This document shows positions 10,938 through 34,823 of a DNA stretch of 64,000 bases, in pieces. Source of the DNA: Bacteroidia bacterium (GTDB lineage: Bacteria > Bacteroidota > Bacteroidia > Flavobacteriales > Flavobacteriaceae); NCBI GenBank assembly GCA_030425285.1, contig JAUIAY010000001.1, forward strand, positions 606,963 through 670,962. Direction: 5' to 3'. Positions within the stretch are counted from its first letter, which is position 1, and each line of letters starts with the position of its first letter. Under the pieces are notes generated by a model. The model did no database searches, was not told the DNA's origin, and worked only from the letters and a program-made list of their open reading frames with translations. The position numbers and the translations under genes are program-made.

Positions 10938-11982
10938 TAAGGCCATTTTAATAACGGGAGGTGCTGGATTCATAGGCTCTCATGTGGTAAGACTGTTTGT
11001 TAACAAATATTCAGATTATCATATTTACAACCTGGATGCATTGACTTATGCGGGAAACCTAGAGAACCTCCAAGACATTGAAAGCAGTCCAAACTACAGT
11101 TTTTTAAAGGCAGATATAACCAACCAAGAGGAAATAAACGGTTTGTTTGACAAATATCGATTTGATGGGGTCATCCATCTTGCAGCCGAGTCCCATGTAG
11201 ATAGGTCCATTTCAGATCCCTTGGCGTTTGTGAAGACGAATGTTATTGGCACCATGATTTTGCTGAATGCTTTTAAAGATCTATGGCATAATAACTTTGA
11301 AGGTAAGCGTTTTTACCACATTAGCACTGATGAGGTTTATGGAACTTTAGGAGAAACAGGGCTTTTTACCGAAACAACACCGTATGATCCCAATTCCCCT
11401 TATTCAGCTTCAAAGGCGAGTTCCGATCATTTTGTAAGGGCATATGGCGAAACCTATAAAATTCCATTTGTTATTTCAAACTGCTCTAATAACTATGGAG
11501 AGAATCAGTTTCCAGAAAAGTTAATACCGTTGTTTATAAACAACATAATTAACAATAAGCCATTGCCCGTTTACGGTGATGGTAATTATACTAGGGACTG
11601 GTTATATGTTCAAGATCACGCCAAAGCCATAGACTTGGTTTTTCATAACGGAGCCAATAAAGAAACCTATAATATTGGTGGATTCAACGAGTGGAAAAAT
11701 ATCGATTTAGTTAAATTACTATGTCAAGAAATGGACATCAAATTAAACATGCCCAAAGGTGAATCTGAAAGGCTCATTTCATTTGTAAAAGACCGCCCTG
11801 GACATGATTTAAGATACGCTATTGATGCCTCAAAAATAAATAAGGAGCTTGGATGGGAGCCTTCAGTAACTTTTGAACAAGGGCTCGTTAAAACAATCAA
11901 CTGGTATTTAAACAATAAAAAATGGCTTGAAAGCGTCACATCAGGCGCCTATCAGTCTTATTACGAAAAACAGTACACCTAA
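10927..11982 (+). CDS. rfbB: dTDP-glucose 4,6-dehydratase
   Basis: RfbB converts dTDP-glucose to dTDP-4-keto-6-deoxyglucose, the second step of dTDP-L-rhamnose synthesis. It is an extended SDR enzyme with the NAD-binding motif GGAGFIGSHV near residue 10, the active-site STDEVYG (S133-D135-E136) and the YxxxK pair in YSASK (Y159, K163). LAAESHVDRSI and NCSNNYGENQFPEKLIP are diagnostic of the dehydratase. The 351-residue length is standard. It is followed with zero spacing by rfbA; the order rfbB-A-C-D is intact and all four are full length. Confidence 0.96.
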   Translation: MKHNKAILITGGAGFIGSHVVRLFVNKYSDYHIYNLDALTYAGNLENLQDIESSPNYSFLKADITNQEEINGLFDKYRFDGVIHLAAESHVDRSISDPLAFVKTNVIGTMILLNAFKDLWHNNFEGKRFYHISTDEVYGTLGETGLFTETTPYDPNSPYSASKASSDHFVRAYGETYKIPFVISNCSNNYGENQFPEKLIPLFINNIINNKPLPVYGDGNYTRDWLYVQDHAKAIDLVFHNGANKETYNIGGFNEWKNIDLVKLLCQEMDIKLNMPKGESERLISFVKDRPGHDLRYAIDASKINKELGWEPSVTFEQGLVKTINWYLNNKKWLESVTSGAYQSYYEKQYT

Positions 11983-12849
11983 ATGAAAGGAATTATACTT
12001 GCAGGAGGATCTGGTACAAGGCTGCACCCTGTTACACTATCAATTAGCAAGCAGTTGATGCCAGTATATGATAAGCCAATGATTTATTATCCGCTTTCAA
12101 CGTTAATGTATTCGGGTATTCGAGAGATTTTAATAATATCAACCCCAAAAGATTTACCGCTTTTCGAAGATCTGTTGGGAGACGGAAGCAAGTACGGCTG
12201 TAAATTTGAATATGCTATACAGGAAAACCCCAACGGATTGGCTGAAGCATTTATTATAGGTGACGATTTTATTGGAAATGACAAAGTAGCTTTAATTTTA
12301 GGAGACAACATTTTTTATGGAACAGGTCTTTCGTCACTTTTACAAAGCAATAATAATCCTGATGGCGGCATTATTTATGCGTATCGTGTACATGATCCTG
12401 AACGTTATGGTGTTGTTGAGTTTAATGAAGAAGGCCAGGCTATTTCTATAGAAGAGAAACCCAAAAAACCAAAATCCAATTTTGCCGTTCCAGGGATTTA
12501 CTTTTATGACAATTCGGTAGTTGATATTGCCAAATCTATTAAGCCAAGTGATAGAGGTGAACTTGAAATAACAGATGTCAATAAAGCCTATTTAGAGCAA
12601 GGTAAATTGCATGTCAGTATTTTGGATAGAGGCACAGCTTGGTTAGACACTGGAACATTTCAGTCTTTGATGCAAGCATCACAATTTATAGAAGTCATTG
12701 AAGAAAGACAAGGTTTAAAAATAGGTTCTATAGAGGCTGCAGCCTACGAAATGGGCTATATTAATTCTAAACAGTTCAAGGAATTGGCCACACAATTACT
12801 TAAGAGTGGTTACGGCAAAAATTTAATGGGATTATTGAATTCAAAATAA
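11983..12849 (+). CDS. rfbA: Glucose-1-phosphate thymidylyltransferase
   Basis: RfbA makes dTDP-glucose from dTTP and glucose-1-phosphate, the committed first step to dTDP-rhamnose. The N-terminal nucleotidyltransferase signature [20 protein letters not shown] begins at residue 8, and the metal-binding [16 protein letters not shown] and [20 protein letters not shown] motifs are all present. At 288 residues it is the usual length. Its ATG directly follows the rfbB stop, and its own stop overlaps the rfbC ATG (TAATG), typical of coupled translation. The enzyme is often feedback inhibited by dTDP-rhamnose. Confidence 0.96.
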
Positions 12850-13406
12850 TGAAGATTCAAGAAACAAAATTAAAAGGTTCTTTTGTAATTGAGCCAAAAG
12901 TTTTTGAGGACAAGCGAGGTTATTTTTTCGAGTCTTTCAATAAAAAGGAATTCAAAAGACAAACCGATCTTGAAATTGACTTTGTTCAGGATAACGAATC
13001 CTTTTCCACAAAAGGTGTTTTAAGAGGGTTGCATTATCAAATAGGTGATTTTGCACAGGCCAAATTGGTTAGAGTGATAAAGGGAAGCGTTTTGGACGTA
13101 GTAGTTGATATTAGAGAAAACTCACCAACTTACGGAGAGTACGTATCAGTTGTTCTTTCGGAAGAAAACAAAAAACAATTTTTTATGCCTAGAGGTTTTG
13201 CTCATGGTTTTGTTGTTTTAAGTGAAACAGCTATTTTTTCCTATAAATGCGACAACTATTATCACCAACCTTCCGAAAGAGGTGTCATTTTTAACGATCC
13301 CGATTTAAGTATCGATTGGCAATTGCCAATAGAAGACCTTATTGTTTCTGAAAAAGATTTAGTTTTGCCTACTTTAGAGCAAATCGAGCTCAATAAAACA
13401 ATTTGA
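12849..13406 (+). CDS. rfbC: dTDP-4-dehydrorhamnose 3,5-epimerase
   Basis: RfbC epimerises C3 and C5 of dTDP-4-keto-6-deoxyglucose. It is a small cupin-fold enzyme of 185 residues. Signatures are FVQDNESFSTKGVLRGLHYQ (with the catalytic His in RGLHYQ), KLVRVIKGSVLDVVVDIR, PRGFAHGFVVLSE and the YKCDNYY segment that carries the active-site tyrosine. It is preceded by an overlapping rfbA stop and followed by rfbD after 18 bases. No unusual features. Confidence 0.95.
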   Translation: MKIQETKLKGSFVIEPKVFEDKRGYFFESFNKKEFKRQTDLEIDFVQDNESFSTKGVLRGLHYQIGDFAQAKLVRVIKGSVLDVVVDIRENSPTYGEYVSVVLSEENKKQFFMPRGFAHGFVVLSETAIFSYKCDNYYHQPSERGVIFNDPDLSIDWQLPIEDLIVSEKDLVLPTLEQIELNKTI

Positions 13407-13424
13407 AGAAATTCTTAAAAGTCA

Positions 13425-14282
13425 ATGAAAACGGTTTTAGTTACTGGGTCTGGAGGTCAATTAGGGAAATGTATTGCGGATTTAGTAGTTAAAAATGGCA
13501 ATATACATTACATTTTTGCCAACCAAGCGAGGCTCGATATTACAGATTTAGATAAAGTCAATGATTTTTTTAATAAAAACAATATTAATTGGTGTGTAAA
13601 CTGTGCAGCTTACACACACGTTGATTTGGCAGAATCGGAAAAACAAAAGGCCTTTAAGATAAACGAAAAAGGTGTTGAGAATTTAGCAACTGTATGCAAA
13701 GCAAGCAACACAAAGCTTATTCATATTTCAACCGATTTTGTATTTGACGGCAGTAAAAAGTTCCTGTATTTGGAGAAAGACAAAACAAATCCCATTAGTG
13801 TTTATGGTCAATCTAAATTAAAAGGGGAAGAAAAGCTTCAAGAGATACTTGACAAATATTTTATCATTAGGACCAGTTGGTTATATTCAGAGCATCAAAA
13901 CAATTTCTTGAAGACAATGCTCCGTTTATCCGAAACAAAAAAGGAAATCAGTGTTGTTGATGATCAAATAGGTACGCCTACTTATGCAGGAGATTTAGCC
14001 CGAGTTATTATTGATATCATTGAAAAGGATTCAAACAGCTATGGTATTTATCACTATTGTAATGACGGACAAACATCATGGTATGGTTTTGCCAAAGAAA
14101 TTTTTAGTTTATCCAGCATAAGTATTAAAATAAATCCAATACCTTCGTCCGATTATAAAACAGCGGCCAAAAGACCCTATTATAGTGTTTTGGATACTAA
14201 CAAAATAAAAAAGGTTTTGGGCTTGGAAATACCCAATTGGGAATTAAGTTTAAAAGCAGCCTTAAAAAAATTACATGAATAA
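13425..14282 (+). CDS. rfbD: dTDP-4-dehydrorhamnose reductase
   Basis: RfbD reduces dTDP-4-keto-L-rhamnose with NAD(P)H to give dTDP-L-rhamnose. It is an SDR-fold protein of 285 residues with the dinucleotide motif TGSGGQLGKCI near residue 7, VNCAAYTHVDLAE, STDFVFDG and the YxxxK catalytic pair in YGQSKLKGE. The product is the activated rhamnose that a rhamnosyltransferase in the locus would use. The last 8 bases overlap the start of cysQ (ATGAATAA), which physically couples rhamnose supply with the sulfate-activation block. Confidence 0.94.
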   Translation: MKTVLVTGSGGQLGKCIADLVVKNGNIHYIFANQARLDITDLDKVNDFFNKNNINWCVNCAAYTHVDLAESEKQKAFKINEKGVENLATVCKASNTKLIHISTDFVFDGSKKFLYLEKDKTNPISVYGQSKLKGEEKLQEILDKYFIIRTSWLYSEHQNNFLKTMLRLSETKKEISVVDDQIGTPTYAGDLARVIIDIIEKDSNSYGIYHYCNDGQTSWYGFAKEIFSLSSISIKINPIPSSDYKTAAKRPYYSVLDTNKIKKVLGLEIPNWELSLKAALKKLHE

Positions 14283-15069
14283 AAATTTAGCAATAGCTAT
14301 AGAAGCATCCCTAAAAGCAGGAAAAGTCATCATGGAGGTGTATGATACCGCCTTTAATGTTGAATTAAAAGATGATAAATCACCATTGACAGAAGCTGAT
14401 AAAAAGGCGAATGACGTTATCAATTCATTTTTGGTTAATACAGACACACCAATTATAAGCGAAGAAAACAAACAGATTGATTACCAAGTAAGAAAGCAAT
14501 GGCAAGATTGCTGGGTTGTAGATCCTGTTGATGGTACCAAAGAGTTTATTAAAAGAAACGGGGAATTTACCGTAAACATTGCGTATGTTGAAGACGGACA
14601 ACCTTCATTGGGTGTTATTTATGTTCCAGCCAGTAAGGTGTTATATTACGCCAATGTTTCTGAAGGGAAATCTTATAAAGCTCAATTGAAGTCCCATGAT
14701 GTCTCAATTCAGGAAGCTATTGAAAAGGCAGAGCTTTTAGAGCCTAAAAATTCTGAATCAGAAATGGTTCAAGTTGTTGGAAGCCGTTCGCATATGAGTC
14801 AAGAAACTTTGGATTTTGTTGAGGAGATTAAAAAAACAGGAAAAACGGTTGAAATTGTATCTAAAGGAAGCTCTCTAAAGTTTTGTCTTGTGGCCGAAGG
14901 GAAAGCAGATGTGTATCCAAGATATGCCCCAACTATGGAGTGGGATACAGCAGCAGGACAAGCAATTTGTAATGCCATAGGTATTCAGGTAATATCCCAT
15001 GAAACAAACCAACCTCTTTTGTACAATAAAGAGAATTTATTAAACCCTTGGTTTGTTGTTTCTAAATAA
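14275..15069 (+). CDS. cysQ: 3'(2'),5'-bisphosphate nucleotidase (PAP phosphatase)
   Basis: CysQ hydrolyses 3'-phosphoadenosine 5'-phosphate (PAP), the by-product of PAPS-dependent sulfotransfer, to AMP, relieving product inhibition of sulfotransferases. It is an inositol monophosphatase superfamily member of 264 residues. The metal-binding signature DPVDGTKEF starts at residue 83 (D83, D86) and the second motif WDTAAGQA is at about 223-230. The upstream acidic ISEEN is also visible. The gene overlaps rfbD and lies 6 bases before the DUF2061 gene. Its presence beside cysC/D/N and two sulfotransferases points to a PAPS-consuming sulfation pathway. Confidence 0.93.
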   Translation: MNKNLAIAIEASLKAGKVIMEVYDTAFNVELKDDKSPLTEADKKANDVINSFLVNTDTPIISEENKQIDYQVRKQWQDCWVVDPVDGTKEFIKRNGEFTVNIAYVEDGQPSLGVIYVPASKVLYYANVSEGKSYKAQLKSHDVSIQEAIEKAELLEPKNSESEMVQVVGSRSHMSQETLDFVEEIKKTGKTVEIVSKGSSLKFCLVAEGKADVYPRYAPTMEWDTAAGQAICNAIGIQVISHETNQPLLYNKENLLNPWFVVSK

Positions 15070-15075
15070 GTTCTA

Positions 15076-15525
15076 ATGGCAAAATACAAGCAAGAATCTC
15101 ACGCTAGAAGCATATTGAAAGGTGTATCGTGGCGCATTGTAGCCACAGCCGACACCATTTTAATAGTTTTACTGATTACTTGTTTAAATGGAAATTGCAG
15201 TATAGATCACGCTATTAAGATTGGCGCAGCAGAGTTTTTAATTAAACTTTTGGTTTATTACTTCCACGAGCGTATTTGGCAATTTGCCCTTAAGGATGGT
15301 GTAGTAACTTCAAAAGAAACACTTTATAAAACAATTTCTTGGCGCGTAGTTGCCACAACCATGACATTCATTATTTCAGGAGCTATCTTAAATGCCTATG
15401 ATGAAATCGCGCTATATATAGCTATTACAGAATTATTTACGAAATTTGCACTCTATTATTTTCATGAGCGTATGTGGCTAAAGCTGCCTCTGGGAAAAGT
15501 AAGAAAGATTTTCAAGAAAAACTAA
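15076..15525 (+). CDS. Membrane protein with two tandem DUF2061 domains
   Basis: The 149-residue protein contains two copies of a roughly 60-residue domain. The first runs from SWRIVATADTILIVLL to AAEFLIKLLVYYFHERIW, the second from SWRVVATTMTFIISGAIL to ITELFTKFALYYFHERMW. Each copy has two predicted transmembrane helices, giving four in total, and ends with the strongly conserved YYFHER-(I/M)-W. DUF2061 has no established function known to me. Its position between cysQ and cysC, within 10 bases of each, suggests a link to sulfate activation, perhaps in transport, but that is guilt by association. Confidence 0.88.
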   Translation: MAKYKQESHARSILKGVSWRIVATADTILIVLLITCLNGNCSIDHAIKIGAAEFLIKLLVYYFHERIWQFALKDGVVTSKETLYKTISWRVVATTMTFIISGAILNAYDEIALYIAITELFTKFALYYFHERMWLKLPLGKVRKIFKKN

Positions 15526-15533
15526 AAACAGGA

Positions 15534-16136
15534 ATGGGCGAAAATATCATCCCACACGATTATCAGATTTCTAGATCAGACAGACAAAAAAACAAAAATC
15601 ATAATTCCTTTTTATTGTGGTTTACGGGTCTTTCGGGTTCGGGTAAGTCAACTATAGCAAATGTGGTAGAACAGGAGCTATTTAAACAAGGTATAAACAC
15701 CTACACTTTAGATGGCGATAATATTAGAAAAGGTATCAATAGTGATTTAACCTTTTCCCCAGAAGATAGAACTGAAAACATAAGACGTATAGCCGAAGTG
15801 GCAAACCTTATGGTTGATGCTGGAATTGTCACTTTAGCAGCATTCGTTTCGCCCTATAAAAAAGATAGAGAGAATATTAAAAGTATCGTCAAAGATGTTA
15901 ACTTTGTCGAGATTTATATTAACACCAGTGTCGAAGAATGTGAACGACGTGATGTAAAGGGTTTATACAAGAAAGCTCGCGCTGGTGAAATAAAAAATAT
16001 GACCGGAATTTCAGCGCCTTATGAAGCACCTGAAAACCCAGATATAGAAATTAAAACCGAAGAAGTATCTGTTGAATTAGCAGTCAAAAAGATACTTGAT
16101 TATATTAGACCAAAATTACAACTCCAAAATGAGTAA
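15534..16136 (+). CDS. cysC: Adenylylsulfate (APS) kinase
   Basis: CysC phosphorylates adenosine 5'-phosphosulfate to PAPS, the universal sulfuryl donor. I choose the ATG at 15534 (200 residues, begins MGENIIPHDYQ) over an in-frame ATG at 15474: the latter would overlap DUF2061 by 52 bases, and 15534 is preceded by AGGA. The Walker A motif GLSGSGKST spans about residues 32-40. DGDNIRKGINSDLTF, EDRTENIRR and FVSPYKKDRE are the family signatures, and the substrate-binding lid GISAPYEAPENP is intact. It is a stand-alone kinase and is not fused to CysN. It overlaps cysD by 8 bases. Confidence 0.95.
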   Translation: MGENIIPHDYQISRSDRQKNKNHNSFLLWFTGLSGSGKSTIANVVEQELFKQGINTYTLDGDNIRKGINSDLTFSPEDRTENIRRIAEVANLMVDAGIVTLAAFVSPYKKDRENIKSIVKDVNFVEIYINTSVEECERRDVKGLYKKARAGEIKNMTGISAPYEAPENPDIEIKTEEVSVELAVKKILDYIRPKLQLQNE

Positions 16137-17034
16137 GTATTATTTAAATTATCTAGACGAGTTAGAAAGTGAAGCTATTTTTGTGCTACGTGAAGTATGG
16201 GCGCAGTTTGATAATCCCGTAATTTTATTTTCAGGAGGGAAGGACTCTATTTTGGTAACACATTTGGCCAAGAAAGCATTTTATCCAGCTAAAATTCCGT
16301 TTCCATTAATGCATGTGGACACAGGACATAATTTTCCAGAAACCATTCAGTTTCGAGACGATATCATTAAGGAATTAGGTGTTCAATTAATTGTGGGTTC
16401 TGTTCAAGAATCTATTGATGAAGGTCGTGTAGCCGAGGAACGTGGTAAGAACGCAACAAGAAACGCTTTGCAAATCACAACGCTTTTAGATGCGATTGAA
16501 GCCAATAAAATAGATTGTGCCATTGGAGGTGGAAGACGTGATGAAGAAAAAGCCAGAGCCAAAGAAAGATTCTTTTCACATAGAGATGATTTTGGCCAAT
16601 GGGATCCAAAAAACCAACGCCCTGAATTGTGGAACATTTTCAACGGCAAACATTTTGAAGGCGAGCATTTTAGAGCTTTCCCAATAAGCAACTGGACTGA
16701 AATGGATGTTTGGAATTATATAAAACGTGAAAATATTGCCATCCCTTCTTTATATTTTGCGCATGAACGCGAGGTTGTTTGGCGACAAGAATCATGGATT
16801 CCTAATTCCGAATTTTTAGTATTAGAAGATCACGAAGAAATAGTCACAAAAAAAATACGTTTTAGAACATTGGGTGATATCACCATAACAGGTGGTATTG
16901 AGTCTGATGCTGATACGTTAGAAAAAATAGCTGATGAAGTTTCTGGTATGCGTCAAACAGAACGCGGTAACAGAAGTGATGACAAGCGTTCTGAATCTGC
17001 GATGGAAGACAGAAAGCGACAAGGTTATTTTTAA
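16129..17034 (+). CDS. cysD: Sulfate adenylyltransferase subunit 2
   Basis: CysD is the catalytic PP-loop ATP pyrophosphatase half of ATP sulfurylase, making APS from ATP and sulfate together with the GTPase CysN. With the ATG at 16129 it has 301 residues, close to the E. coli length, and begins MSKYYLNYLDELE. An upstream in-frame ATG (16096) would add 11 residues inside cysC and is less likely. The PP-loop SGGKDS is at about 35-40, followed by HVDTGHNFPET, GGGRRDEEKARAKER and the C-terminal RQTERGNRSDD and EDRKRQGYF, all typical. The last bases of cysC and the start of cysD overlap as ATGAGTAA. Confidence 0.96.
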   Translation: MSKYYLNYLDELESEAIFVLREVWAQFDNPVILFSGGKDSILVTHLAKKAFYPAKIPFPLMHVDTGHNFPETIQFRDDIIKELGVQLIVGSVQESIDEGRVAEERGKNATRNALQITTLLDAIEANKIDCAIGGGRRDEEKARAKERFFSHRDDFGQWDPKNQRPELWNIFNGKHFEGEHFRAFPISNWTEMDVWNYIKRENIAIPSLYFAHEREVVWRQESWIPNSEFLVLEDHEEIVTKKIRFRTLGDITITGGIESDADTLEKIADEVSGMRQTERGNRSDDKRSESAMEDRKRQGYF

Positions 17035-17052
17035 TCAAAATTATTAATTGCA

Positions 17053-17084
17053 ATACTGCCCCGAAACTTCGGGATATTCAGTAT
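17053..17084. repeat. Nested inverted repeat between cysD and cysN
   Basis: The outer arms ATACTG (17053-17058) and CAGTAT (17079-17084) enclose an inner palindrome CCCGAA-AC-TTCGGG (17060-17073). It is the only GC-rich island in the 66-base gap between cysD and cysN and has no U tract, so it is not a typical terminator. It may be a small REP-like element or an mRNA stability structure. Confidence 0.6.
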
Positions 17085-17100
17085 CTCATATAAAATTATC

Positions 17101-18354
17101 ATGTTAGATAACAATCAATTATTACGTTTTACAACAGCAGGAAGTGTAGATGACGGAAAGAGTACTTTAATAGGGCGCTTGCTTTATGACTCCAAATCAA
17201 TTTTTGAAGACCAATTGCAGGCCATTGAAAACACCAGCAAAAAGAAAGGTCACGAAGGCGTTGATTTGGCATTGTTTACAGATGGATTACGTGATGAACG
17301 TGAGCAAGGCATTACAATTGATGTTGCCTATAGATATTTTACAACACCCAAACGAAAATTCATTATTGCAGATACGCCTGGCCACATTCAATATACTCGT
17401 AATATGGTAACAGGAGCTTCAACAGCCAATGCGGCTATTATTCTAGTTGATGCAAGACACGGTGTGATTGAACAAACCAGAAGACATTCCTTTATAGCAT
17501 CATTGCTTCAAATACCACATGTTATTGTGTGTATTAATAAAATGGATTTAGTTGATTTTTCTGAAGAGGCCTATAATAAAGTTATCGAGCAGTTTGAAGA
17601 ATTTTCATCCAAAATGCTGGTGAAGGATGTTCGTTTTATACCTATAAGCGCTTTGTTAGGAGATAATGTGGTTAATCGTTCACAAAATATGGATTGGTAT
17701 CAAGGAGCACCATTATTGCATACACTAGAAACGATGCATATTAGTAGCGATATCAATAAAGTTGACGCACGTTTTCCAGTTCAAACAGTTTTAAGACCAC
17801 AAAGAGAAGGATTCATAGACTATAGAGGTTATGCAGGCCGTGTAGCAAGTGGTGTGTTTAGAAAGGGCGATGAGGTCACCATTATGCCATCAGGTTTTAA
17901 TTCTAAAATAAAATCTATTGACACTCTAGAAGGAGGATTGGAAGAAGCATTTGCTCCGATGTCAGTTTCAATAACATTAGAAGATGATATTGATATTAGT
18001 AGAGGAGACATGATTGTGCGATCAAACAACAAACCAGAAGCTTCACAAGATTTAGAGGTTATGCTTTGTTGGCTTCATAATGATGCTGCCAAGCCTAGAG
18101 CCAAGTATACAATTAGACACACTTCCAATGAGCAAAAAGCTATGATTAAAGAGGTTGTCTATAAGTATGATATAAATTCATTGGAAAGGAATATGGATGA
18201 TAAGGAATTGGTAATGAACGATATTTCAAAAGTTAAAATCCGCACAACAAAGCCCTTAATGGTGGATTCTTATAGAGAAAATAGAACAACGGGGAGCATC
18301 ATTTTGGTTGATGACGCTACGAATGAAACTGTTGCTGCAGGAATGATTGTTTGA
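17101..18354 (+). CDS. cysN: Sulfate adenylyltransferase subunit 1 (GTPase)
   Basis: CysN is an EF-Tu-like GTPase that drives APS formation by CysD. G1 is GSVDDGKS (14-21), followed by the switch segment REQGITIDVAYRYF, G3 is DTPGH (91-95) and G4 is NKMD (146-149), so all nucleotide motifs are intact. At 417 residues it is the short Bacteroidota form without a C-terminal APS kinase domain, consistent with the separate cysC gene. The C-terminal barrel region ends with ETVAAGMIV. No cysH, cysI or cysJ (sulfate reduction genes) follow, so the block as seen stops at PAPS. Confidence 0.95.
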   Translation: MLDNNQLLRFTTAGSVDDGKSTLIGRLLYDSKSIFEDQLQAIENTSKKKGHEGVDLALFTDGLRDEREQGITIDVAYRYFTTPKRKFIIADTPGHIQYTRNMVTGASTANAAIILVDARHGVIEQTRRHSFIASLLQIPHVIVCINKMDLVDFSEEAYNKVIEQFEEFSSKMLVKDVRFIPISALLGDNVVNRSQNMDWYQGAPLLHTLETMHISSDINKVDARFPVQTVLRPQREGFIDYRGYAGRVASGVFRKGDEVTIMPSGFNSKIKSIDTLEGGLEEAFAPMSVSITLEDDIDISRGDMIVRSNNKPEASQDLEVMLCWLHNDAAKPRAKYTIRHTSNEQKAMIKEVVYKYDINSLERNMDDKELVMNDISKVKIRTTKPLMVDSYRENRTTGSIILVDDATNETVAAGMIV

Positions 18355-18364
18355 TGGCATTGTT

Positions 18365-18889
18365 ATGATTAGAGTTCTAATATTTATTATGTTTTTTACA
18401 CTTGCTTCTTGTAATAACAGTAAGTCTTCAGAGACAGAAATTCCAATCGTGGAAGTAAAGGAAGAGTTTGAATTAGTTTTTGAATTAAAAACATCATTGG
18501 AAGATGAGTTTAAAGTCATTGTGAATAACATCAAAGTTGATGAATTTCAGAAGAAAAGTATTCAGGTTATAGAAACTATTCCGCCTTCTTCAGGTTATGA
18601 AAAATTAAAAGCAAATTTCGGCGATAAAAATATTTCAAATTTTATACTAATCAACCTTGGTAAAAAAGAGAAGGTAGTTGAATTTAATTACATTTCATTC
18701 AAATATGGTCAAAAATCAATAGTTGTAGACGCTAGTAATTTTGATGAGTTTATGAACTACAACAAATTTGTTTCGATTGACAAAAGCAATTTTACTATCA
18801 CAACTCAAAAGATTGGCAATAAACATAATCCGATAATATCAGCAAAAAGAGTACTTATAAATAAACTTTTGCAAAAAGAGGGTAAATAA
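18365..18889 (+). CDS. Hypothetical lipoprotein
   Basis: I do not recognise this family. Starting at the ATG at 18365 (10 bases after cysN) gives 174 residues with a clear lipoprotein signal: MIRVLIFIMFFTLASC, with lipobox L-A-S-C at about 13-16, then a Ser/Glu-rich linker. The frame also has an ATG at 18347 inside cysN, but the 18365 start gives a better signal peptide. The mature part is mixed alpha/beta-looking with many Lys, Ile and Phe and no catalytic motif. It lies between cysN and the flippase, so it may be part of the polysaccharide export or sulfation machinery; this is inference. From here base composition becomes visibly more AT-rich. Confidence 0.65.
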   Translation: MIRVLIFIMFFTLASCNNSKSSETEIPIVEVKEEFELVFELKTSLEDEFKVIVNNIKVDEFQKKSIQVIETIPPSSGYEKLKANFGDKNISNFILINLGKKEKVVEFNYISFKYGQKSIVVDASNFDEFMNYNKFVSIDKSNFTITTQKIGNKHNPIISAKRVLINKLLQKEGK

Positions 18890-18890
18890 A

Positions 18891-20213
18891 ATTTTAATTC
18901 TAAGGGTTATCAAAACACTTTATAATTTCTATAAAAATCTACTTGACAAAGACCTTAAAGAGATTGTTGACAAAGGATTTAACTTTTTACTTCTTCGTGT
19001 TTTAGGAATAATAGCCGGATATATTTTTACTTATATCATTGCTCAAGAATATGGTGCAGAGGTTAATGGATTAGTTTCATTAAGCTTTACATTATTAATG
19101 TGCTTGAGTATTTTTGGTCGATTAGGGATTGATATGAATTTGATACCATTTTTCTCTATTAAGGAAAACAGTTTTGATTCTGGCCTTTTTTTAAAAGTAC
19201 TATTAAAAGCATTTATTTTTTCTTCTCTAATAGCATTAGTTCTTTATGGTTTAAAGAACTTAATCTGTGTACATTTATTTAGTAAGCCGCAGTTGTTGCC
19301 CTATATTTTTTGGGTTTGTTTGACAATCCCTTTCTGGTCTGTTGTTTTAATTTGTGCCGGATTTTTTAGATCAATAAAGAAGAACAACCTTTTTGCTTTT
19401 TTTAATAACCCTGGCAGGTTTTTATTTTCTCTAGGCATTTTTATTGTGTTATTGACTTATTCAAAAGATTCGCTAAATGCAATTAAAGCACATTTTTTTG
19501 GGGTTTTCATTTTGGCATTATACAGTTTTTATTTAGCCCTTAAAGAATTTGATAAAATTAGATTTAAACCTGTTTTCAATTCATGGGTTTTTATTAAGGA
19601 TGCTATTCCCATGATGTTTTCTGGTGCAATTATCGTGTTTTTGGGTTGGTCTGATACTTTGGTTTTAGGTATTTATGAAACTGATGAAACAATAGGTGTT
19701 TATAATGTTGCCTTAAAAATAGCCATGATTACAAGTTTTTCATTGCAAGCAATTAATTCTATTCTTGCGCCCAAAATAGCCACATATTTTAAGCTCAATC
19801 AAAAGGATAAGTTTGAGAGTTTAATACGATTTTCAACAAAGCTTAATTTCATAATTACTACAGTTATTGTTGTATTAATATTAATTTTTCATCGTTTTAT
19901 TTTAGCCACATTTGGCGAGGCTTTTTTATCAGGGAGTATTATATTAATAATTTTGTGTGTTGGTCAGTTAATTAACTCTTTTTCGGGTTCAGTCGGCATA
20001 ATTTTACAGATGACAGGACATCAAAAAAAATATCAAAATATTGTTTTTGTTGCACTTATAATTAATTTAGCACTAAATTTTTTATTAACTCCGTTATATG
20101 GTGCTTTTGGGGCCGCGGTATCAACTGTTATAGGTATAGCTTATTGGAATTTTTCTGGAGCATTTTATTTAAAAAGAAAGCTTAATATAACTAGTTATTT
20201 TTCGATTCATTAG
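18891..20213 (+). CDS. Polysaccharide flippase (Wzx-like) with non-canonical start
   Basis: This is a multi-pass membrane protein of the polysaccharide transporter/MATE-like class, expected to flip lipid-linked repeat units across the inner membrane. The frame is open from 18861, and the translation upstream of the first ATG (19098) is clearly part of the protein: KGFNFLLLRVLGIIAGYIFT supplies the first transmembrane helix, followed by the start of the second. No ATG, GTG or TTG exists between the upstream stop (18858) and 19098. I place the start at ATT 18891, two bases after the previous stop (about 440 residues, normal for Wzx); ATT at 18897 is an alternative. An undetected frameshift is another possible explanation. 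Confidence 0.7.
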   Translation: MLILRVIKTLYNFYKNLLDKDLKEIVDKGFNFLLLRVLGIIAGYIFTYIIAQEYGAEVNGLVSLSFTLLMCLSIFGRLGIDMNLIPFFSIKENSFDSGLFLKVLLKAFIFSSLIALVLYGLKNLICVHLFSKPQLLPYIFWVCLTIPFWSVVLICAGFFRSIKKNNLFAFFNNPGRFLFSLGIFIVLLTYSKDSLNAIKAHFFGVFILALYSFYLALKEFDKIRFKPVFNSWVFIKDAIPMMFSGAIIVFLGWSDTLVLGIYETDETIGVYNVALKIAMITSFSLQAINSILAPKIATYFKLNQKDKFESLIRFSTKLNFIITTVIVVLILIFHRFILATFGEAFLSGSIILIILCVGQLINSFSGSVGIILQMTGHQKKYQNIVFVALIINLALNFLLTPLYGAFGAAVSTVIGIAYWNFSGAFYLKRKLNITSYFSIH

Positions 20214-20219
20214 ATATTT

Positions 20220-21110
20220 ATGTTAAAACCAAATACATTTATAATTGGAGCGCAAAAATCTGCAACCACTTCATTATATAATTGGATAGCACAGCACCCT
20301 GATATTTGTGCCCCTAACTCATTAAAAGACTATCCGATTTTCTTAAGTAAGAACCATTCAGAAAAAGAAATAGAGTCTTTTGAAAAAGAATACTTTAGAG
20401 AAGGTTATAAGGAGCAAAAAATAATTTTGCAAGGATGTGTAAATTATATGTTCTATAGAAACGGGATAGAGAATGTTTATTCATTTAACCCTGAATCTAA
20501 ACTAATTTGTGTGCTGCGAAATCCTACAGATAGAGCTATTTCGGCATATAATTATTTTAAGAAACTTAATTTAGAAAACCTATCTCTTAAGGAGGCACTA
20601 TTGCAAGAAGAGTCAAGAGCAAAAAAATCACAACGGCAAAAAAACAATTTTACCTATAAAGCACATGGTTTATATTTTGAACAATTAGAATTTATATATT
20701 CCATTTTCAGAAAAGAGCAAGTTCTAGTTTTGCTATATGATGATTTAAAAACAAAACCAGAAATGGTAATAAAACAAACTTTTGATTTTCTTAAAGTTGA
20801 TAACGGCATAAAGGTAGAAACTAAAAAACTTAATGTCACAGGAGAAATTAAACATAAACCACTTCATGATTTACTGTTTAAAGAAAGTAAAATTAGAAAA
20901 TTTATTGTTGACAATTTTATTGATCCCATACTGCCCATTCACAGAAGGACTAATTTAAAGTTAGCTTTTTTAAATTGGAACACTAAAAAGAACAAAAAGG
21001 TTAATGAGAATAGTTTTGAACATGAGAGAAATGATCTCAAACAGTTTTTTAAGCAGGATATTGAAAAATTAGAAAAATTAATTGGGAAAAATCTAGACCA
21101 TTGGAAATAG
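20220..21110 (+). CDS. PAPS-dependent sulfotransferase domain protein 1
   Basis: It transfers sulfate from PAPS to an acceptor, here probably a hydroxyl of a glycan. The 5'-phosphosulfate loop is IIGAQKSATTSLYNW (about residues 8-22, with the key Lys in QKSATTS) and the 3'-phosphate site is VLRNPTDRAISAY (R100 and S108 in the usual R-x7-S spacing). At 296 residues the length fits the Sulfotransfer_1 family of heparan sulfate-type enzymes. There is no signal peptide or transmembrane helix, so action is cytoplasmic, on nucleotide- or lipid-linked sugars before flipping. It follows the flippase by 6 bases and overlaps the second sulfotransferase by 10. Confidence 0.87.
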   Translation: MLKPNTFIIGAQKSATTSLYNWIAQHPDICAPNSLKDYPIFLSKNHSEKEIESFEKEYFREGYKEQKIILQGCVNYMFYRNGIENVYSFNPESKLICVLRNPTDRAISAYNYFKKLNLENLSLKEALLQEESRAKKSQRQKNNFTYKAHGLYFEQLEFIYSIFRKEQVLVLLYDDLKTKPEMVIKQTFDFLKVDNGIKVETKKLNVTGEIKHKPLHDLLFKESKIRKFIVDNFIDPILPIHRRTNLKLAFLNWNTKKNKKVNENSFEHERNDLKQFFKQDIEKLEKLIGKNLDHWK

Positions 21111-22108
21111 AAGAAAAAAATCCTGTTCCTTTCTTTATAGTTGGAGTTCAACGATCCGGCACAACATTGTTGCGGTTAATTTTGAACGCGCACTCAAAAA
21201 TAGCAATACCAGAAGAAGCTAGTTTTTTAAAACCTTTGTTGAGCACTAAATGGATTAAAAAATCAATAAAAGGGAATGAAAAAGATAAGGTTGTTAGTTA
21301 TTTGCGAAATAATGAACAGTTTAAGCTGTGGAATTTTGACAGAGAACCTTTGCTAAATGAAATTGAGAGTAGGGATATAATTACCATAAAAGAAATTATG
21401 GAGATAATGTACTCTTCTTATGCAAAACATGAGGGAAAGTCAAATTGGGGAGATAAAAGCCTCTTTTTTGGTTCAATGGAGAATATTAACAAAATGTTTC
21501 CTGAAGCTCTTTTTATACATATAGTAAGGGATGGTAGAGACGTTTTTCATAGTTGGCGCAAAATGGATCCAAGCAAGTCACACCCTTCAGTAATGGCGCT
21601 TGATTGGAAAGCTAAACATTATTTAATAGAAAAATCATTAAAAGAGATTCCAAAGCAAAAAATACACTTAATTAGATATGAAGATTTAGTTAATGATCCC
21701 AAAAAACAACTATTGGCGATATGTGATTTTCTGAATATTCCCTTTGAAGATAAAATGATAAGTTTTCACAAGGACAGCAATAAGTATATTGGGAAACACC
21801 ATTCTGATCTAATTTTTAAGGCTATTGACAAGTCGAACACCAATAAATGGAAAAAAACGTTAACCTTAAATGAGCAATCAATATATCAACTTGTTGTAAA
21901 AAAATCCTTAAAAAAATATGATTATGAACTAATAGATGATAAAGCCATTGTAAAAACCTATTTCTTAACTTTTTTTGATTTAACTATTGGTTTACCAAAA
22001 AGGTTTATTGAGCTTTTGAAAGTAAGATTTTCTTTTTGGATAGCTTTAAGAAAAGGAGAAGCGCCTAAAAACATAAAAGTTGGTGATATGCCAGAAATTA
22101 ATAATTAG
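21101..22108 (+). CDS. PAPS-dependent sulfotransferase domain protein 2
   Basis: This is a second sulfotransferase, distinct from its neighbour: the PAPS loop is FFIVGVQRSGTTLLRLIL (about 11-28) and the 3'-phosphate site is IVRDGRDVFHSW (R143, S151). The 335-residue length and the sequence EDLVNDPKKQLLAICDFLNI resemble bacterial Sulfotransfer_3-like enzymes. The start appears to be TTG at 21101, inside the end of the first sulfotransferase gene, since no ATG precedes the PAPS loop. It is cytoplasmic by prediction. Two different sulfotransferases in tandem suggest sulfation at two positions or on two residues of the repeat unit, which is inference. Confidence 0.85.
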   Translation: MEIEEKNPVPFFIVGVQRSGTTLLRLILNAHSKIAIPEEASFLKPLLSTKWIKKSIKGNEKDKVVSYLRNNEQFKLWNFDREPLLNEIESRDIITIKEIMEIMYSSYAKHEGKSNWGDKSLFFGSMENINKMFPEALFIHIVRDGRDVFHSWRKMDPSKSHPSVMALDWKAKHYLIEKSLKEIPKQKIHLIRYEDLVNDPKKQLLAICDFLNIPFEDKMISFHKDSNKYIGKHHSDLIFKAIDKSNTNKWKKTLTLNEQSIYQLVVKKSLKKYDYELIDDKAIVKTYFLTFFDLTIGLPKRFIELLKVRFSFWIALRKGEAPKNIKVGDMPEINN

Positions 22109-22114: not shown

Positions 22115-23386
22115 ATGGAACTAAAGGTAAAAAAGTCTTGGCTTTTAGAAACAAGTTTAATTTTCTCAATTTTAATACTTGTTTTTTTGTATGACTTTTT
22201 TTCTAGTAAAATAGGTTTTTTCGACGAGTTAATAGCATTGTTTTCATTCCTTGTAATTATTTATCAAGTTTTTTTGCACCAAAAAACAAGGCTTTTTAAT
22301 AGAGAGTATTTAGTAATATTTTTTTTACTTTTATTGGTGTTTATTGGCTTATTGTCAAATGCTTACTCATGCATTATTGGGTTTTGTACCGATTTGCCCG
22401 CTATAATTGCCGATGCTATAACTTTCTCCAAAGCATTCGTTGTTTATTTTGCAATAAGGTTTCTAAATAATAGTATTGATTCCAATCAAGTTTTAAATAA
22501 GCTTGCTATTTATTCTGAAAGGATTTTTTATATACTTGTTTTATTTGTTGTCCTTGACATAATATTTAAAATTTACCCACGAGAAAATAGATTTGGGATA
22601 CAGTCAATAGAACTTTTTTTTCAGCACACGTCTAGATATGCATTTGCTTTTTCATTTATATTTTTAGTTCTCTTACCTAAATACTACCAGAAAAAGCTGG
22701 GATTACTTTTTTTGGTTTTATTTTTCGGCTTGTTGTCTTTGAGGATTAAGTACATAGGTTTTTTACTGTTAACAACAATATTTATTTTTTATGGAAAAAG
22801 ACTAGTGAAAATCCCCAAGACATTTGTATTATACTTTTTAATATTTGTTGTTCTAATTTTATCATGGGTTTTTAAAGAGAGAATTCAAATGTATTTTGTT
22901 TTTGATGGACTCAATGAAGCTTGGTCTAGAGCAGTTATTTTATATTACAGCTTTATTATAGGATTCGATTTTTTTCCTTTAGGAACTGGGTTTGGCACAT
23001 ATTCTTCATATTATTCGGGCGCTTACTATTCTTGGGTATATGATATGTATGAAATAAGCCATGTATATGGTATTAAAAGAACACATTGGAAGTTTATTGC
23101 AGATCAATATTGGCCAATGGTTTTAGGTCAATTTGGTTATTTGGGACTCGTTAGCATGTTAATAATAGTCTATAATTATTTTATGTTATTTCTAACAAAA
23201 GTAAAATCTAACTTATTCAATAACTCACAGTATTATTTGTATCTAGGGGCTTTATTGGGATTACTAATGCTTTTAATTGATAGCACGTCTGATTCAATCT
23301 TTTCTCAACAACGAGCTGTAGTTATGTTTGCTTACTTTGCATTAATAATTAATATTTCTAGCAATCGTGAAAGTACTTCAAATTAA
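22115..23386 (+). CDS. O-antigen polymerase/ligase-like membrane protein
   Basis: The 423-residue protein is very hydrophobic with about 10-11 predicted transmembrane helices. A larger loop in the C-terminal half carries PLGTGFGTYSSYYSGAYYS, the glycine-rich loop pattern seen in Wzy polymerases and O-antigen ligases. It begins MELKVKKSWLLETS, 6 bases after the second sulfotransferase. Its role is probably to polymerise undecaprenyl-linked repeat units in the periplasm. Sequence identity in this class is always low, so polymerase versus ligase cannot be settled from sequence. Another such protein is encoded one gene downstream. The last 20 bases overlap the GT4 gene. Confidence 0.72.
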   Translation: MELKVKKSWLLETSLIFSILILVFLYDFFSSKIGFFDELIALFSFLVIIYQVFLHQKTRLFNREYLVIFFLLLLVFIGLLSNAYSCIIGFCTDLPAIIADAITFSKAFVVYFAIRFLNNSIDSNQVLNKLAIYSERIFYILVLFVVLDIIFKIYPRENRFGIQSIELFFQHTSRYAFAFSFIFLVLLPKYYQKKLGLLFLVLFFGLLSLRIKYIGFLLLTTIFIFYGKRLVKIPKTFVLYFLIFVVLILSWVFKERIQMYFVFDGLNEAWSRAVILYYSFIIGFDFFPLGTGFGTYSSYYSGAYYSWVYDMYEISHVYGIKRTHWKFIADQYWPMVLGQFGYLGLVSMLIIVYNYFMLFLTKVKSNLFNNSQYYLYLGALLGLLMLLIDSTSDSIFSQQRAVVMFAYFALIINISSNRESTSN

Positions 23387-24575
23387 TAAATTTCTTAAAC
23401 CTGTTGGTGGATCTGAAACCTATATGTTTCAGTTGGCAAAATCTTTGAGAGAAAAAGAAATAGAAGTTAAGTTTTGGGGGATGTATGATGAAGACAACAT
23501 TACACATGATTTCCCAAATTTGTTAGCCGAAAACATCAATTACAGTAATCAAGGAGCTGCCAAAAAATTGGGATCATTAGTTGATACCATTTACTCAAAA
23601 AAAAACAGAAAAAAAATCGGAATTGTGTTGGATGAGTATAAACCAGACATTGTCCATATTCATAATTATAACTTTCAAATATCACCAAGTATTCTTCCTG
23701 AAATAAAAAAAAGAAATATCTCTGTTGTTCAAACAATACATGACAGCCAAATGGTTTGTCCATATCATAGACTATTTAATTTCCAGCAGAATCAAGTTTG
23801 TATTAAATGTGTCGAAGGGTCTTTTTTTAATTGTATTAAGGACAGGTGTTTTGATGGTTCGTTACTAAAAAGCATGGTTGGAGCCGCTGAAAGTATGTTA
23901 TACCATTCCTTGGGTTATTATGAGAAACACATAGATACTTTTATAAGTCCAAGTAGATTTTTAGCGGAGTTAATAAAAAAAAGGATTGACAAGGAAATTG
24001 TTGTTATACCTAATTTTACAGTTATTCAAAAGGAGGAGGACACTATTTCTAAAACCGAAGACTATTATTTATATTATGGGAGAATTTCTGATGAAAAAGG
24101 TATTTTAGAATTATTAGATTTATTCAAGGACATAAGCTTAAAGTTGGTAATTGTTGGTAAAGGGGCACTTGATGAAGAGGTGGAGAATAGAATTAAAGGT
24201 TTAAAAAACATTAAGTTTTTGGGTCCAAAATATAATAAAGAACTTTTTGACATTGTTGAAAAGGCTAAATTTGTTATTCAACCAGCCAAAGGATTTGAGA
24301 ATTGTCCCATGACTGTAATAGAGTCTTTTGCTTTAAGCACGCCTGTCATTGGATCAAACCACAGCGGATTTAACGACTTGATTAAAAACGGTATTACAGG
24401 ATATCTTTTAGACTTCTCAAAAACCGAAGAGGTCAAAACCAAATTACTGGAAATAGACAAGGTTTCTACAATTCAAATTAGGAAAAACATCAAGGAATAT
24501 TACACCAAAAATTTATCCAAAGATGTTCATATAGATAAAGTTCTATCAGTATATAAAAAACTTTTAGAAAAGTGA
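23367..24575 (+). CDS. Glycosyltransferase family 4
   Basis: This is a GT-B fold retaining glycosyltransferase of 402 residues. The N-terminal VLQINKFLKPVGGSETYMF is the acceptor-domain glycine-rich loop. The C-terminal domain has YYLYYGRISDEKGILELLD and the nucleotide-sugar site FVIQPAKGFENCPMTVIESF, where the E-x7-E pattern is partly altered (E293 in FENCP, E301 in VIESF). A GTG at 23367, inside the 3' end of the previous gene, serves as the start. A Cys-rich insert (CPYHRLFNFQQNQVCIKCVE then CIKDRC) is unusual for GT4 and might bind a metal. Donor and acceptor are not predictable. Confidence 0.85.
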   Translation: MKVLQINKFLKPVGGSETYMFQLAKSLREKEIEVKFWGMYDEDNITHDFPNLLAENINYSNQGAAKKLGSLVDTIYSKKNRKKIGIVLDEYKPDIVHIHNYNFQISPSILPEIKKRNISVVQTIHDSQMVCPYHRLFNFQQNQVCIKCVEGSFFNCIKDRCFDGSLLKSMVGAAESMLYHSLGYYEKHIDTFISPSRFLAELIKKRIDKEIVVIPNFTVIQKEEDTISKTEDYYLYYGRISDEKGILELLDLFKDISLKLVIVGKGALDEEVENRIKGLKNIKFLGPKYNKELFDIVEKAKFVIQPAKGFENCPMTVIESFALSTPVIGSNHSGFNDLIKNGITGYLLDFSKTEEVKTKLLEIDKVSTIQIRKNIKEYYTKNLSKDVHIDKVLSVYKKLLEK

Positions 24576-25741
24576 TAACTACCAGAAGTTTAAAAGCTAT
24601 AAATTTAAACGAAGCCGTATTCATTATCCTAATGCTTTATTTAGGCATGGCGTTTTTTTCATTTGCCTTGTCAAACATACTTTTAGGTTTAGCAGGTATA
24701 TTTTATTTAATAGGACAGATAAAAGGTCAAATAACCTTAAGAGGGTTTAGTTGGAAGCTATACTTAGTTTGTGCAGTACCTTATTTGTTAACAATTATAT
24801 CTTTTTTGAATTCTGAAGCATATAACAGCGGTTTAAGATATCTCAATTTAAGATTGCCAATTTTAGTTGTTCCACTGATGATATTAAGCCTTAAAATTGA
24901 AAAAACATACATTATCAAAGGATTTAAATTATTGGTGATAGCATCACTGTTAGCTTGTGCGGGAACTTTTTATAATGCTATCAAATATTTTGACCAAGAT
25001 ATCTTGTTAAAAACCGATTTTGTCCATTTCATTACAATTATACAACACCCTTATTTTGGGGTATTAGTTTTAATTGCTCTCCTATCGGTTCTTGAGTATC
25101 AAATTATTTCTAACAAGCTATTCAAATGGTTGGTTATAATATTACTTACTCTTGCAATTGTGTTAACCACATCACGTATAGTTTACATTTCCTATTTTTT
25201 GGTAGTTTGCTTATATTTTTACTCACATTTATCCAGAAAACAATTTGTCTTTTCGATTATAGCTGTTTCTATTTTGGCATCAATGTTTTTATTCTTTAAC
25301 AAAAGTGTTTTAAATAAGTTTGAACATAGTTTGGATTATGACAAATCTCCAAGATTAAAACTTTGGAGCAATACTTTTGAAGCAGTTGACAAAACTCAAA
25401 GTTATTATTTTGGAATAGGTATTGGCGATTTTTATAAAGTTAAAAAAGATGTTTATTTTGGAGAAAATTATTCAGAAACCGCTTTAGGGTCTTACGGATT
25501 TAATCCGCATAGTCAACTCATAGAGTTTTATCTTACAAACGGTATTTTTGGTATAATCATATTACTTTTTGCTTTGATGTTTTATTTTACTAAAATTAAA
25601 ACCCAAAGCAAGTTTGCGCAAGCCGTTTTCTTAATCATTTTCTTATTTTCAATGGTAGAATGTATATTGGATAGACAGTATGGTGTACAATTATATAGCG
25701 TATTGATTCCATTAATGTTAAATAAAAATTTCAAAAAATAG
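24572..25741 (+). CDS. O-antigen ligase/polymerase family membrane protein
   Basis: The 389-residue integral membrane protein has about ten predicted helices and starts with GTG, overlapping the GT4 stop as GTGA. The C-terminal periplasmic loop contains GIGIGDFYKVKKDVYF and YGFNPHSQLIEFYLTNGIFG. The pattern NPHSQ-x-x-x-x-x-x-x-x-G-x-x-G is the O-antigen ligase/Wzy_C signature, with the His thought to be important in WaaL. With the other Wzy-like protein upstream, one may polymerise the glycan and one may transfer it to lipid A-core or another acceptor. This one looks the more ligase-like, with moderate certainty. Confidence 0.75.
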   Translation: MITTRSLKAINLNEAVFIILMLYLGMAFFSFALSNILLGLAGIFYLIGQIKGQITLRGFSWKLYLVCAVPYLLTIISFLNSEAYNSGLRYLNLRLPILVVPLMILSLKIEKTYIIKGFKLLVIASLLACAGTFYNAIKYFDQDILLKTDFVHFITIIQHPYFGVLVLIALLSVLEYQIISNKLFKWLVIILLTLAIVLTTSRIVYISYFLVVCLYFYSHLSRKQFVFSIIAVSILASMFLFFNKSVLNKFEHSLDYDKSPRLKLWSNTFEAVDKTQSYYFGIGIGDFYKVKKDVYFGENYSETALGSYGFNPHSQLIEFYLTNGIFGIIILLFALMFYFTKIKTQSKFAQAVFLIIFLFSMVECILDRQYGVQLYSVLIPLMLNKNFKK

Positions 25742-33835: not shown

Positions 33836-33836
33836 T

Positions 33837-34823
33837 ATGAAAAGAGTTTTAATTACCGGAGCAGCAGGATTTTTAGGATCACATTTATGTGATAGATTTA
33901 TAGATGAAGGGTTTTATGTAATAGGCATGGATAATTTTATTACAGGAGACCGTAAGAATATCGGTCACCTGTTAGAAAACCCTAATTTTGAATTCGTAGA
34001 CCACGATGTTACAAATTTTGTTTCTATTGATGGCGATTTAGATTACATATTGCATTTTGCTTCACCCGCAAGTCCTATAGATTATTTAAAAATTCCAATT
34101 CAAACACTTAAAGTGGGATCATTGGGAACACACAATTTGTTAGGATTGGCAAAAGCCAAAAACGCTAGAATTCTTATTGCTTCTACTTCCGAAGTCTATG
34201 GAGATCCATTGGTACACCCTCAAAGCGAAGACTATTATGGTAACGTAAACACCATTGGACCTCGAGGGGTTTATGACGAAGCTAAACGTTTTCAGGAATC
34301 CATTACCATGGCTTACCATAGGTTTCATGGATTGGAAACAAGAATCGTTAGAATTTTCAACACGTATGGTCCTAGAATGAGACTTAACGACGGACGAGTA
34401 ATCCCAGCTTTTATGGGTCAGGCCCTGCGAGGGGAAGACTTCACAATTTTTGGAGACGGCTCCCAAACACGCTCCTTTTGTTATGTAGATGATCAAGTTG
34501 ACGGTATTTTTAGATTGATGTTTAGTGACTATTCCTATCCTGTAAATATTGGGAACCCAAACGAAATTTCGATTAAGGATTTTGCTTTTGAAATAATAAA
34601 ACTTACTGGTACCGATCAAAAGGTTGTGTTCAAGGATTTGCCAAAAGATGATCCAATGCAAAGAAAACCAGATATATCACTTGCCAAGAAGCTCTTAAAT
34701 TGGTCGCCTAGAGTTGATAGGGAAGAAGGTATGCGAAAAACATTTAAGTACTTTAAAGGCCTATCAGAAGAAGAGTTAAGAAAGAGTGAACATAAAGATT
34801 TTTCAAAGCACATTAAAAAATAA
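33837..34823 (+). CDS. UDP-glucuronate decarboxylase (UDP-xylose synthase)
   Basis: It converts UDP-glucuronate to UDP-xylose (or the 4-keto-pentose intermediate). It is a 328-residue extended SDR with [14 protein letters not shown] near residue 7. The UXS-specific stretches [34 protein letters not shown] and [11 protein letters not shown] (YxxxK: Y146, K150) separate it from dehydratases and 4-epimerases. [18 protein letters not shown] completes the family picture. The position one base after ugd makes a two-gene UDP-pentose pathway, and the stop is adjacent to the ATG of the initiating transferase. Confidence 0.93.

Follow-up and report, generated by a model that had tools for sequence, protein, structure and literature searches.

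Analysis of a 64,000-nucleotide window from a Flavobacteriaceae genome (C7:606963-670962; the genome, of 3.12 Mb in 16 contigs, is 99.99% complete) revealed a block of sulfate-activation genes situated between the genes for dTDP-L-rhamnose synthesis and two sulfotransferase genes. We regard it as probable, at about 0.78, that in this genome the block is a cassette supplying 3'-phosphoadenosine 5'-phosphosulfate (PAPS) for glycan sulfation. The genes and their order, as proposed by the first-pass annotation, are borne out by NCBIfam and Pfam matches over the cut-offs, all genes being located on the + strand. The small gaps it described are likewise present in the sequence: adjacent genes overlap or are separated by a few bases, with a maximum of 66 bases between the end of cysD (17034) and the start of cysN (17101). 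The block reads as follows (APS, adenosine 5'-phosphosulfate; PAP, 3'-phosphoadenosine 5'-phosphate; pLDDT, predicted local distance difference test).

10927..14282, + strand: rfbB, rfbA, rfbC and rfbD, dTDP-L-rhamnose synthesis (TIGR01181, TIGR01207, TIGR01221 and TIGR01214, all above cut-off)
14275..15069, + strand: cysQ, 3'(2'),5'-bisphosphate nucleotidase, which clears PAP (TIGR01331, 263.5 bits, cut-off 228.8)
15076..15525, + strand: DUF2061 membrane protein with two repeats (PF09834 in two stretches; model pLDDT 86)
15534..16136, + strand: cysC, APS kinase (apsK, TIGR00455, 253.7 bits, cut-off 138.7)
16129..17034, + strand: cysD, ATP sulfurylase small subunit (TIGR02039, 409.2, cut-off 396.6)
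17101..18354, + strand: cysN, ATP sulfurylase GTPase subunit (TIGR02034, 559.7, cut-off 336.1)
18365..18889, + strand: small lipoprotein, starting at ATG 18365 (no Pfam or NCBIfam family match)
18891..20213, + strand: Wzx-type flippase (Polysacc_synt, PF01943, 53.6 bits, cut-off 28.2)
20220..21110, + strand: sulfotransferase 1 (PF00685, 2.4e-17, above cut-off)
21101..22108, + strand: sulfotransferase 2 (Sulfotransfer_3, PF13469, 6e-37, above cut-off)

In the proposed pathway, CysD and CysN would convert sulfate and ATP to APS, and CysC would convert APS to PAPS. Hydroxyl (or amino) groups on a sugar unit that is bound to its lipid carrier in the cytoplasm would then be sulfated by the sulfotransferases. 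CysQ would clear the PAP that this releases, and the products of the flippase and polymerase genes would export and polymerise the sulfated repeat. From the genes we infer that the enzymes are active, that the acceptor is a rhamnose-containing Wzx/Wzy glycan, where in the cell sulfation takes place and what its product is.

The gene content of the genome separates the block from sulfate assimilation. No match to sulfite reductase (PF01077) was found in the block or anywhere in the genome, while the same search was positive in 11 of 14 control genomes. Two genes of the PF01507 family are present, the cassette cysD and one cysH on contig C5; the cassette copy is the only CysD found, and the cassette cysC is the only PF01583 match. 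Because PF01077 sulfite reductase is missing and CysD is single, the block cannot serve ordinary assimilation in this genome, and APS and PAPS would be used otherwise than by the usual route to sulfide. The earlier remark that the block lacks cysH, cysI and cysJ is thus right and, for PF01077, holds genome-wide, with one CysH on another contig and with cysJ not searched for.

Co-occurrence was examined across 119 genomes of this family, each under a different genus label and at least 95% complete, with presence counts taken from per-genome tables. PF01583 was matched in 79 of the 119 genomes; 61 with matches above 160 bits were accepted as having CysC, and 18 below 64 bits were dropped. Sulfotransferases were called by PF13469 alone (E <= 0.001), so that genes recognized only by PF00685 are missed. 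By these calls CysC was present in 61 genomes, sulfite reductase in 68 and a PF13469 sulfotransferase in 50 (49 above the curated cut-off). CysC is found in all 50 genomes with a sulfotransferase, and a sulfotransferase in none of the 58 that lack CysC (Fisher p 3.9e-23). CysC showed no association with sulfite reductase (31 genomes with both, 30 with CysC only, 37 with sulfite reductase only, 21 with neither; p 0.20).

As genera share history, a tree of RpoB served as a control. An RpoB match was found in 118 genomes (G112, which has no CysC, gave none), and 100 of these were placed in the tree: all 57 that lack CysC, all 11 that have CysC but lack a sulfotransferase and, of the 50 carrying both, 32 (the genome studied here and 31 chosen at random). 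The tree requires 27 changes for CysC and 19 for the sulfotransferase. In 16 independent pairs differing in CysC, the sulfotransferase followed CysC in a mean of 10.8, ran against it in 0 and did not differ in 5.2 (median sign-test p 0.001); 14 pairs differing in sulfite reductase gave no trend (2.2 the same way, 1.7 the other). Since the tree is built by FastTree from one protein, these p values are rough. The sulfotransferase accordingly follows CysC, not sulfite reductase.

The surroundings of 61 CysC genes from 60 sampled genomes (G115 has two) were compared over stretches of up to 20 kb, 1.19 Mb in total. The order cysQ-DUF2061-cysC-cysD-cysN is kept in 42 of the 61 loci, and in five more cysQ is placed after cysN (four with DUF2061, one without). 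This recurrence of the cys gene order in many genera is more than chance. Pfam-matched sulfotransferases, 41 in number, were found within 29 of the 61 neighbourhoods; as the 50 positive genomes in their whole length hold 164 PF13469 matches, some of them split, this is a strong enrichment near CysC. At least three of rfbABCD are present in 16 neighbourhoods. The run of lipoprotein, flippase and sulfotransferase 1 recurs in two loci (L107 and L113).

The sulfotransferase count was obtained with a model made from 29 hand-picked hits, which replaced an iterative search; the first iterative search had drifted and picked up at least one hexapeptide transferase (window position 31686), and was dropped. 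Of 48 candidates from the similarity search, 20 were scanned singly and the other 28 were shown to be PF13469-positive by subtraction from totals; five candidates with no Pfam match (in L102, L106, L124, L126 and L141) were discarded.

In a second set of 80 named loci, picked by CysD similarity and in some cases too short to show the full order, the five-gene order was found in 32 and rfbD directly before the cassette in eight, including Winogradskyella aurantia and an Oceanihabitans. The CysD sequences nearest to that of the window belong to flavobacteria, Psychroserpens and Winogradskyella among them. One metagenome-assembled genome (MAG; L010), titled Algicola sp. and by name a member of Pseudoalteromonadaceae, shares the flavobacterial gene order of the window, and its CysD is 98% identical to the one there; its title is probably a homonym or a mislabel.

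Similar gene combinations are known from capsule loci of marine bacteria. The capsule of Vibrio sp. KMM 8419 contains 3-sulfated L-Rha (Rhap3S4Ac), established by NMR, and its authors regard PAPS genes together with sulfotransferases in a polysaccharide locus as a hallmark of sulfated polysaccharide synthesis (PMC11641403). The window holds this combination, CysDN and CysC lying inside a polysaccharide locus with two sulfotransferases. As here, rhamnose genes, cysC/cysN/cysD and sulfotransferases share one polysaccharide locus in the Vibrio strain; however, that strain is not a member of Bacteroidota, its capsule is exported by an ABC transporter (Kps) rather than by a Wzx/Wzy system, its cys genes and sulfotransferases are scattered over regions of a 95 kb locus, and its cys genes are second copies, whereas one CysC and one CysD were found here (PMC11641403). 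The capsule locus of Cobetia marina KMM 1449 likewise has rhamnose genes, CysN/CysC, CysD, CysQ and a sulfotransferase, and its product contains L-Rha 2-sulfate; it differs from the window in a fused cysN/cysC, a sulfate permease gene in the operon and an ABC-transporter capsule (PMC11766843). DUF2061 is not mentioned for either cluster in the available parts of the two reports (PMC11641403; PMC11766843).

For the Bacteroidetes themselves, a literature search on sulfotransferase or cys genes in flavobacteria or Bacteroidetes yielded no such cassette among the matches listed, in a collection lacking most subscription papers; this agrees with the statement of the first-pass annotation that sulfated polysaccharides are rarely described in this phylum. 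In the available parts of these sources, a review mentions sulfate groups in the exopolysaccharides of a group of strains, Winogradskyella among them (PMC9605250), and a microbial mat study reports that its Bacteroidetes MAGs have no sulfotransferase gene by BLAST, unlike the family sampled here (PMC9723792). The claim that PAPS is made for surface-glycan sulfotransferases is well supported by the absence of sulfite reductase and by the complete co-occurrence that survives the tree control, and is backed further by the sulfotransferases near CysC and by the Vibrio and Cobetia clusters.

The genome contains six sulfotransferase frames, two in the block, two on contig C1 and two on contig C12. 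Next to the C1 pair (L096) are glycosyltransferase genes and an ABC exporter carrying a Wzt_C domain; the C12 pair (L097) also has glycosyltransferase neighbours, and a flippase gene follows at a distance of about 5.5 kb. The 20 kb stretches around these two loci showed no cys genes. As the genome has one CysC and four sulfotransferases at two other sugar loci, the cassette probably supplies PAPS to the whole cell and to all six sulfotransferases. The earlier wording, by which PAPS supply and use form one unit, is therefore too narrow: supply would be confined to the block, which has the only CysC and CysD found, and use would not.

Sulfotransferase 1 is nearest in sequence to the Alicyclobacillus protein 3rnl and to human heparan sulfate N- and 3-O-sulfotransferases. 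A fold search with its structural model (pLDDT 80) matched the same set (3rnl at E 2.6e-16) and also PAP-bound enzymes, with identities of about 17-24%. In the alignment Lys13, Arg100 and Ser108 are invariant and are kept in sulfotransferase 1; these residues and the position of Gly15 are presumably PAPS contacts. The protein is thus predicted, from sequence and model, to have a sulfotransferase fold with conserved residues of the PAPS motif.

Several findings weigh against glycan sulfation as the role of the block. In eleven of the 61 genomes with CysC, PF13469 is not matched at all, and 32 of the 61 CysC neighbourhoods have no confirmed sulfotransferase. Of the rfb-cys-sulfotransferase order that the first-pass annotation proposed to seek in related genomes, the cys part is conserved and a sulfotransferase is often near, but rfbD lies directly 5' of the cassette in only 4 of the 61 sampled loci, which makes the rhamnose link a local one. 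Among the matches listed (sorted by E-value, with CysD-size matches first), the 31 genomes that have both CysC and sulfite reductase comprise 18 with the cassette CysD only, nine with CysD elsewhere only and four with both. In the genome studied here the lone CysH may also draw APS from the cassette CysDN. Sulfotransferase 1 has Ala, in a KSATT variant of the PAPS loop, where at least 90% of the alignment rows, and most relatives, have Gly15; the KSATT form is shared by the sulfotransferases of L107 and L113, which are 52-54% identical to it. The nearest solved structures to sulfotransferase 2 are CurM and tyrosylprotein sulfotransferases.

The cysH gene raises the possibility of two sinks, with PAPS used for glycan sulfation and APS used by CysH, whose sulfite would go not to cysteine but, for example, into a sulfonate like the head group of a sulfonolipid. 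The gene product, of 230 amino acids, scores 208.1 against PRK02090 (phosphoadenylyl-sulfate reductase; NCBIfam cut-off 154). The gene, at G000:C5:3986-4486 (L002, L098), encodes the Cys-pair motifs FCC and CKHC, in a genome without PF01077 sulfite reductase. Further sampled genomes that lack sulfite reductase, among them G006, G031, G048 and G084, also have genes of CysH size (frames of 232-240 amino acids). The two-sink arrangement would account for a CysH in a genome that has no PF01077 sulfite reductase and only the cassette CysD found to supply it. It is compatible with glycan sulfation and does not exclude it; we consider it unlikely.

The rest of the locus bears on the acceptor. By its gene content it appears to be a Wzx/Wzy-type glycan locus, which would fit a capsule, an exopolysaccharide or an O-antigen alike. 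The genes that follow the block are listed below.

22115..23386, + strand: multi-spanning membrane protein, possibly a Wzy polymerase (no family match; judged by position and reading of the translation only)
23367..24575, + strand: glycosyltransferase, GT4 type (PF00534, PF13439)
24572..25741, + strand: Wzy_C domain protein, polymerase or O-antigen ligase (PF04932, 6.1e-17)
25743..26696, + strand: AXE1-type esterase (PF05448, 2.4e-39)
32534..36182, + strand: UDP-sugar dehydrogenase (PF03721/PF00984/PF03720), NAD-dependent epimerase/decarboxylase (PF01370/PF16363) and priming sugar transferase (PF02397)

The last three genes possibly belong to the same glycan pathway; the priming transferase is found about 13 kb past the sulfotransferases, behind genes of the opposite strand.

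PAPS could also be made here for sulfotransferases that both act on a lipid, on protein tyrosine or on a secreted small molecule. The relatives of sulfotransferase 2 would allow this, CurM belonging to a polyketide pathway, and the sulfotransferase families do not determine the acceptor. However, both genes stand in a single-strand run between the flippase gene and the glycosyltransferase and Wzy_C genes, sulfotransferase 1 is closest to 3rnl and the heparan sulfate enzymes, and the four other sulfotransferases of the genome are at sugar loci as well, so that we judge a purely non-glycan role improbable.

Outside this genome, the relation of the cassette to assimilation is less simple. CysD was found within 3 kb of CysC in 52 of the 61 CysC genomes and, by the same counting of listed matches as above, all 30 CysC genomes without sulfite reductase have the cassette CysD and no other. 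A reading in which the cassette CysD would be set aside for sulfation throughout the family was rejected on recount, as 18 of the 31 genomes with CysC and sulfite reductase have only the cassette CysD. As it is the sole copy in these 18, it presumably feeds assimilation there too. The cassette is thus outside assimilation in genomes such as the one studied here, while in many relatives CysDN presumably serves both branches. With 18 of the 31 genomes having their only CysD beside CysC and nine having it elsewhere, a single ATP sulfurylase seems to be exchanged or shared between sulfation and assimilation.

Assimilatory loci of the family have CysD, CysN and DUF2061 in common with the cassette. 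They differ from it in having CysH and sulfite reductase near and in lacking any CysC match among the loci retrieved, where the order DUF2061-cysH-cysD-cysN was found in five of seven, the other two being without CysD. The five assimilatory CysD split from 133 cassette-type CysD, that of the window included, with 100% local support (FastTree only). The CysD of the window is therefore not on the assimilatory branch, which is a weak test of function, given the 18 relatives in which a cassette CysD is the sole copy. The DUF2061 frames differ as well, being of about 85-115 amino acids with one repeat in assimilatory loci and of about 140-170 amino acids with two repeats in cassettes, though a few cassette copies are short as well.

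That the block is an assimilatory sulfate-reduction operon lying by chance beside sugar genes, its CysDN feeding CysH and sulfite reductase and its CysC being accessory, draws on the CysD and CysN common to both pathways, the single CysH of the genome, the 18 relatives just mentioned and a survey of Winogradskyella MAGs that, in its available part, files cysC, cysN and cysD under sulfur assimilation (PMC9723794), but is very improbable given the absence of PF01077 sulfite reductase, the different gene order and separate CysD branch of the assimilatory loci, and a sulfotransferase distribution that follows CysC. The present results suggest a different reading of those Winogradskyella genes (PMC9723794).

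The association of DUF2061 with sulfate activation extends to both kinds of locus. Of the 103 genomes in which PF01507 is strongly matched, 98 have DUF2061 (PF09834), as against none of the other 16 (p 7.6e-16). A strong match was taken as CysD, which leaves aside 12 genomes with no match and four with matches weaker than E 1e-30; the 21st genome without DUF2061 was taken to be G113 by elimination. In 12 independent pairs differing in CysD, DUF2061 followed CysD in a mean of 11.6 and ran against it in none. The structural model is a four-helix bundle (pLDDT 86), and a fold search with it gave no PDB match at E <= 0.001. The available literature passages that mention DUF2061 do not tie it to sulfate; it is named among genes responding to iron or to an iron regulator in some published lists, as far as these are available. 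A role as the sole sulfate importer was considered and set aside, SulP transporters (PF00916) being present in 116 of the 119 genomes, with four matches in the genome studied here. The pattern of co-occurrence makes DUF2061 a candidate membrane partner of APS/PAPS metabolism.

Some features of the gene calls and of the surrounding sequence should be noted. The start of cysQ is overlapped by eight bases by the end of rfbD. The reading frame of cysC is open from GTG 15474, and ATG 15534, eight bases past DUF2061, is the favoured start; ATG 16129 of cysD overlaps cysC by eight bases. Before 19098 the flippase frame contains neither ATG nor GTG nor TTG; ATT 18891, one base past the lipoprotein stop, is the likeliest start, and the N-termini of relatives suggest a start near it. 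The small lipoprotein has an ASC that we take to be a lipobox-like motif. It has no family match and recurs past cysN in several loci, e.g., L015, L107, L113, L117 and L130, and this recurrence suggests a role in the same pathway as the cassette. Promoter and terminator scans of 9500-27200 gave no excess over shuffled sequence (75 vs. a mean of 79.0, and 9 vs. a mean of 9.1), so that the operon boundaries are left unset by them, and scans of the window for Rfam families (gathering threshold) and tRNAs gave no matches. At 6648-8150 the window encodes a GH3-family protein related to OlsH (lyso-ornithine lipid synthetase; 384 bits, below the cut-off of 620).

Since the gene combination is known from marine Gammaproteobacteria, a PAPS cassette serving glycan sulfation is ordinary in principle; within the literature searched, it is new as a family-wide trait. 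As about half of the sampled genera have the donor gene set, the flavobacteria carrying the cassette probably decorate their own surface sugars with sulfate. We put forward a wider proposal tentatively, as possible rather than probable. In about half of Flavobacteriaceae genera the CysC cassette would be a glycan-sulfation system annotated as assimilation, and in 30 of the 61 it would stand wholly outside assimilation. In many others the cassette CysDN would have taken over the assimilatory supply of APS, and DUF2061 would be a new membrane partner common to both branches. For DUF2061, the co-occurrence is a first functional lead.

Marine flavobacteria are known as degraders of sulfated algal polysaccharides. 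If the proposal is true, these degraders of algal sulfated sugars would be broad producers of sulfated sugars too, which would alter the interpretation of how sulfated polysaccharides are cycled and of how phages adsorb and cations bind to these cells. CysC then offers a simple genome test for such producers in the family: if it marks glycan sulfation, about half of the genera (61 of 119, 50 of them also with PF13469) would be predicted to make sulfated sugars.

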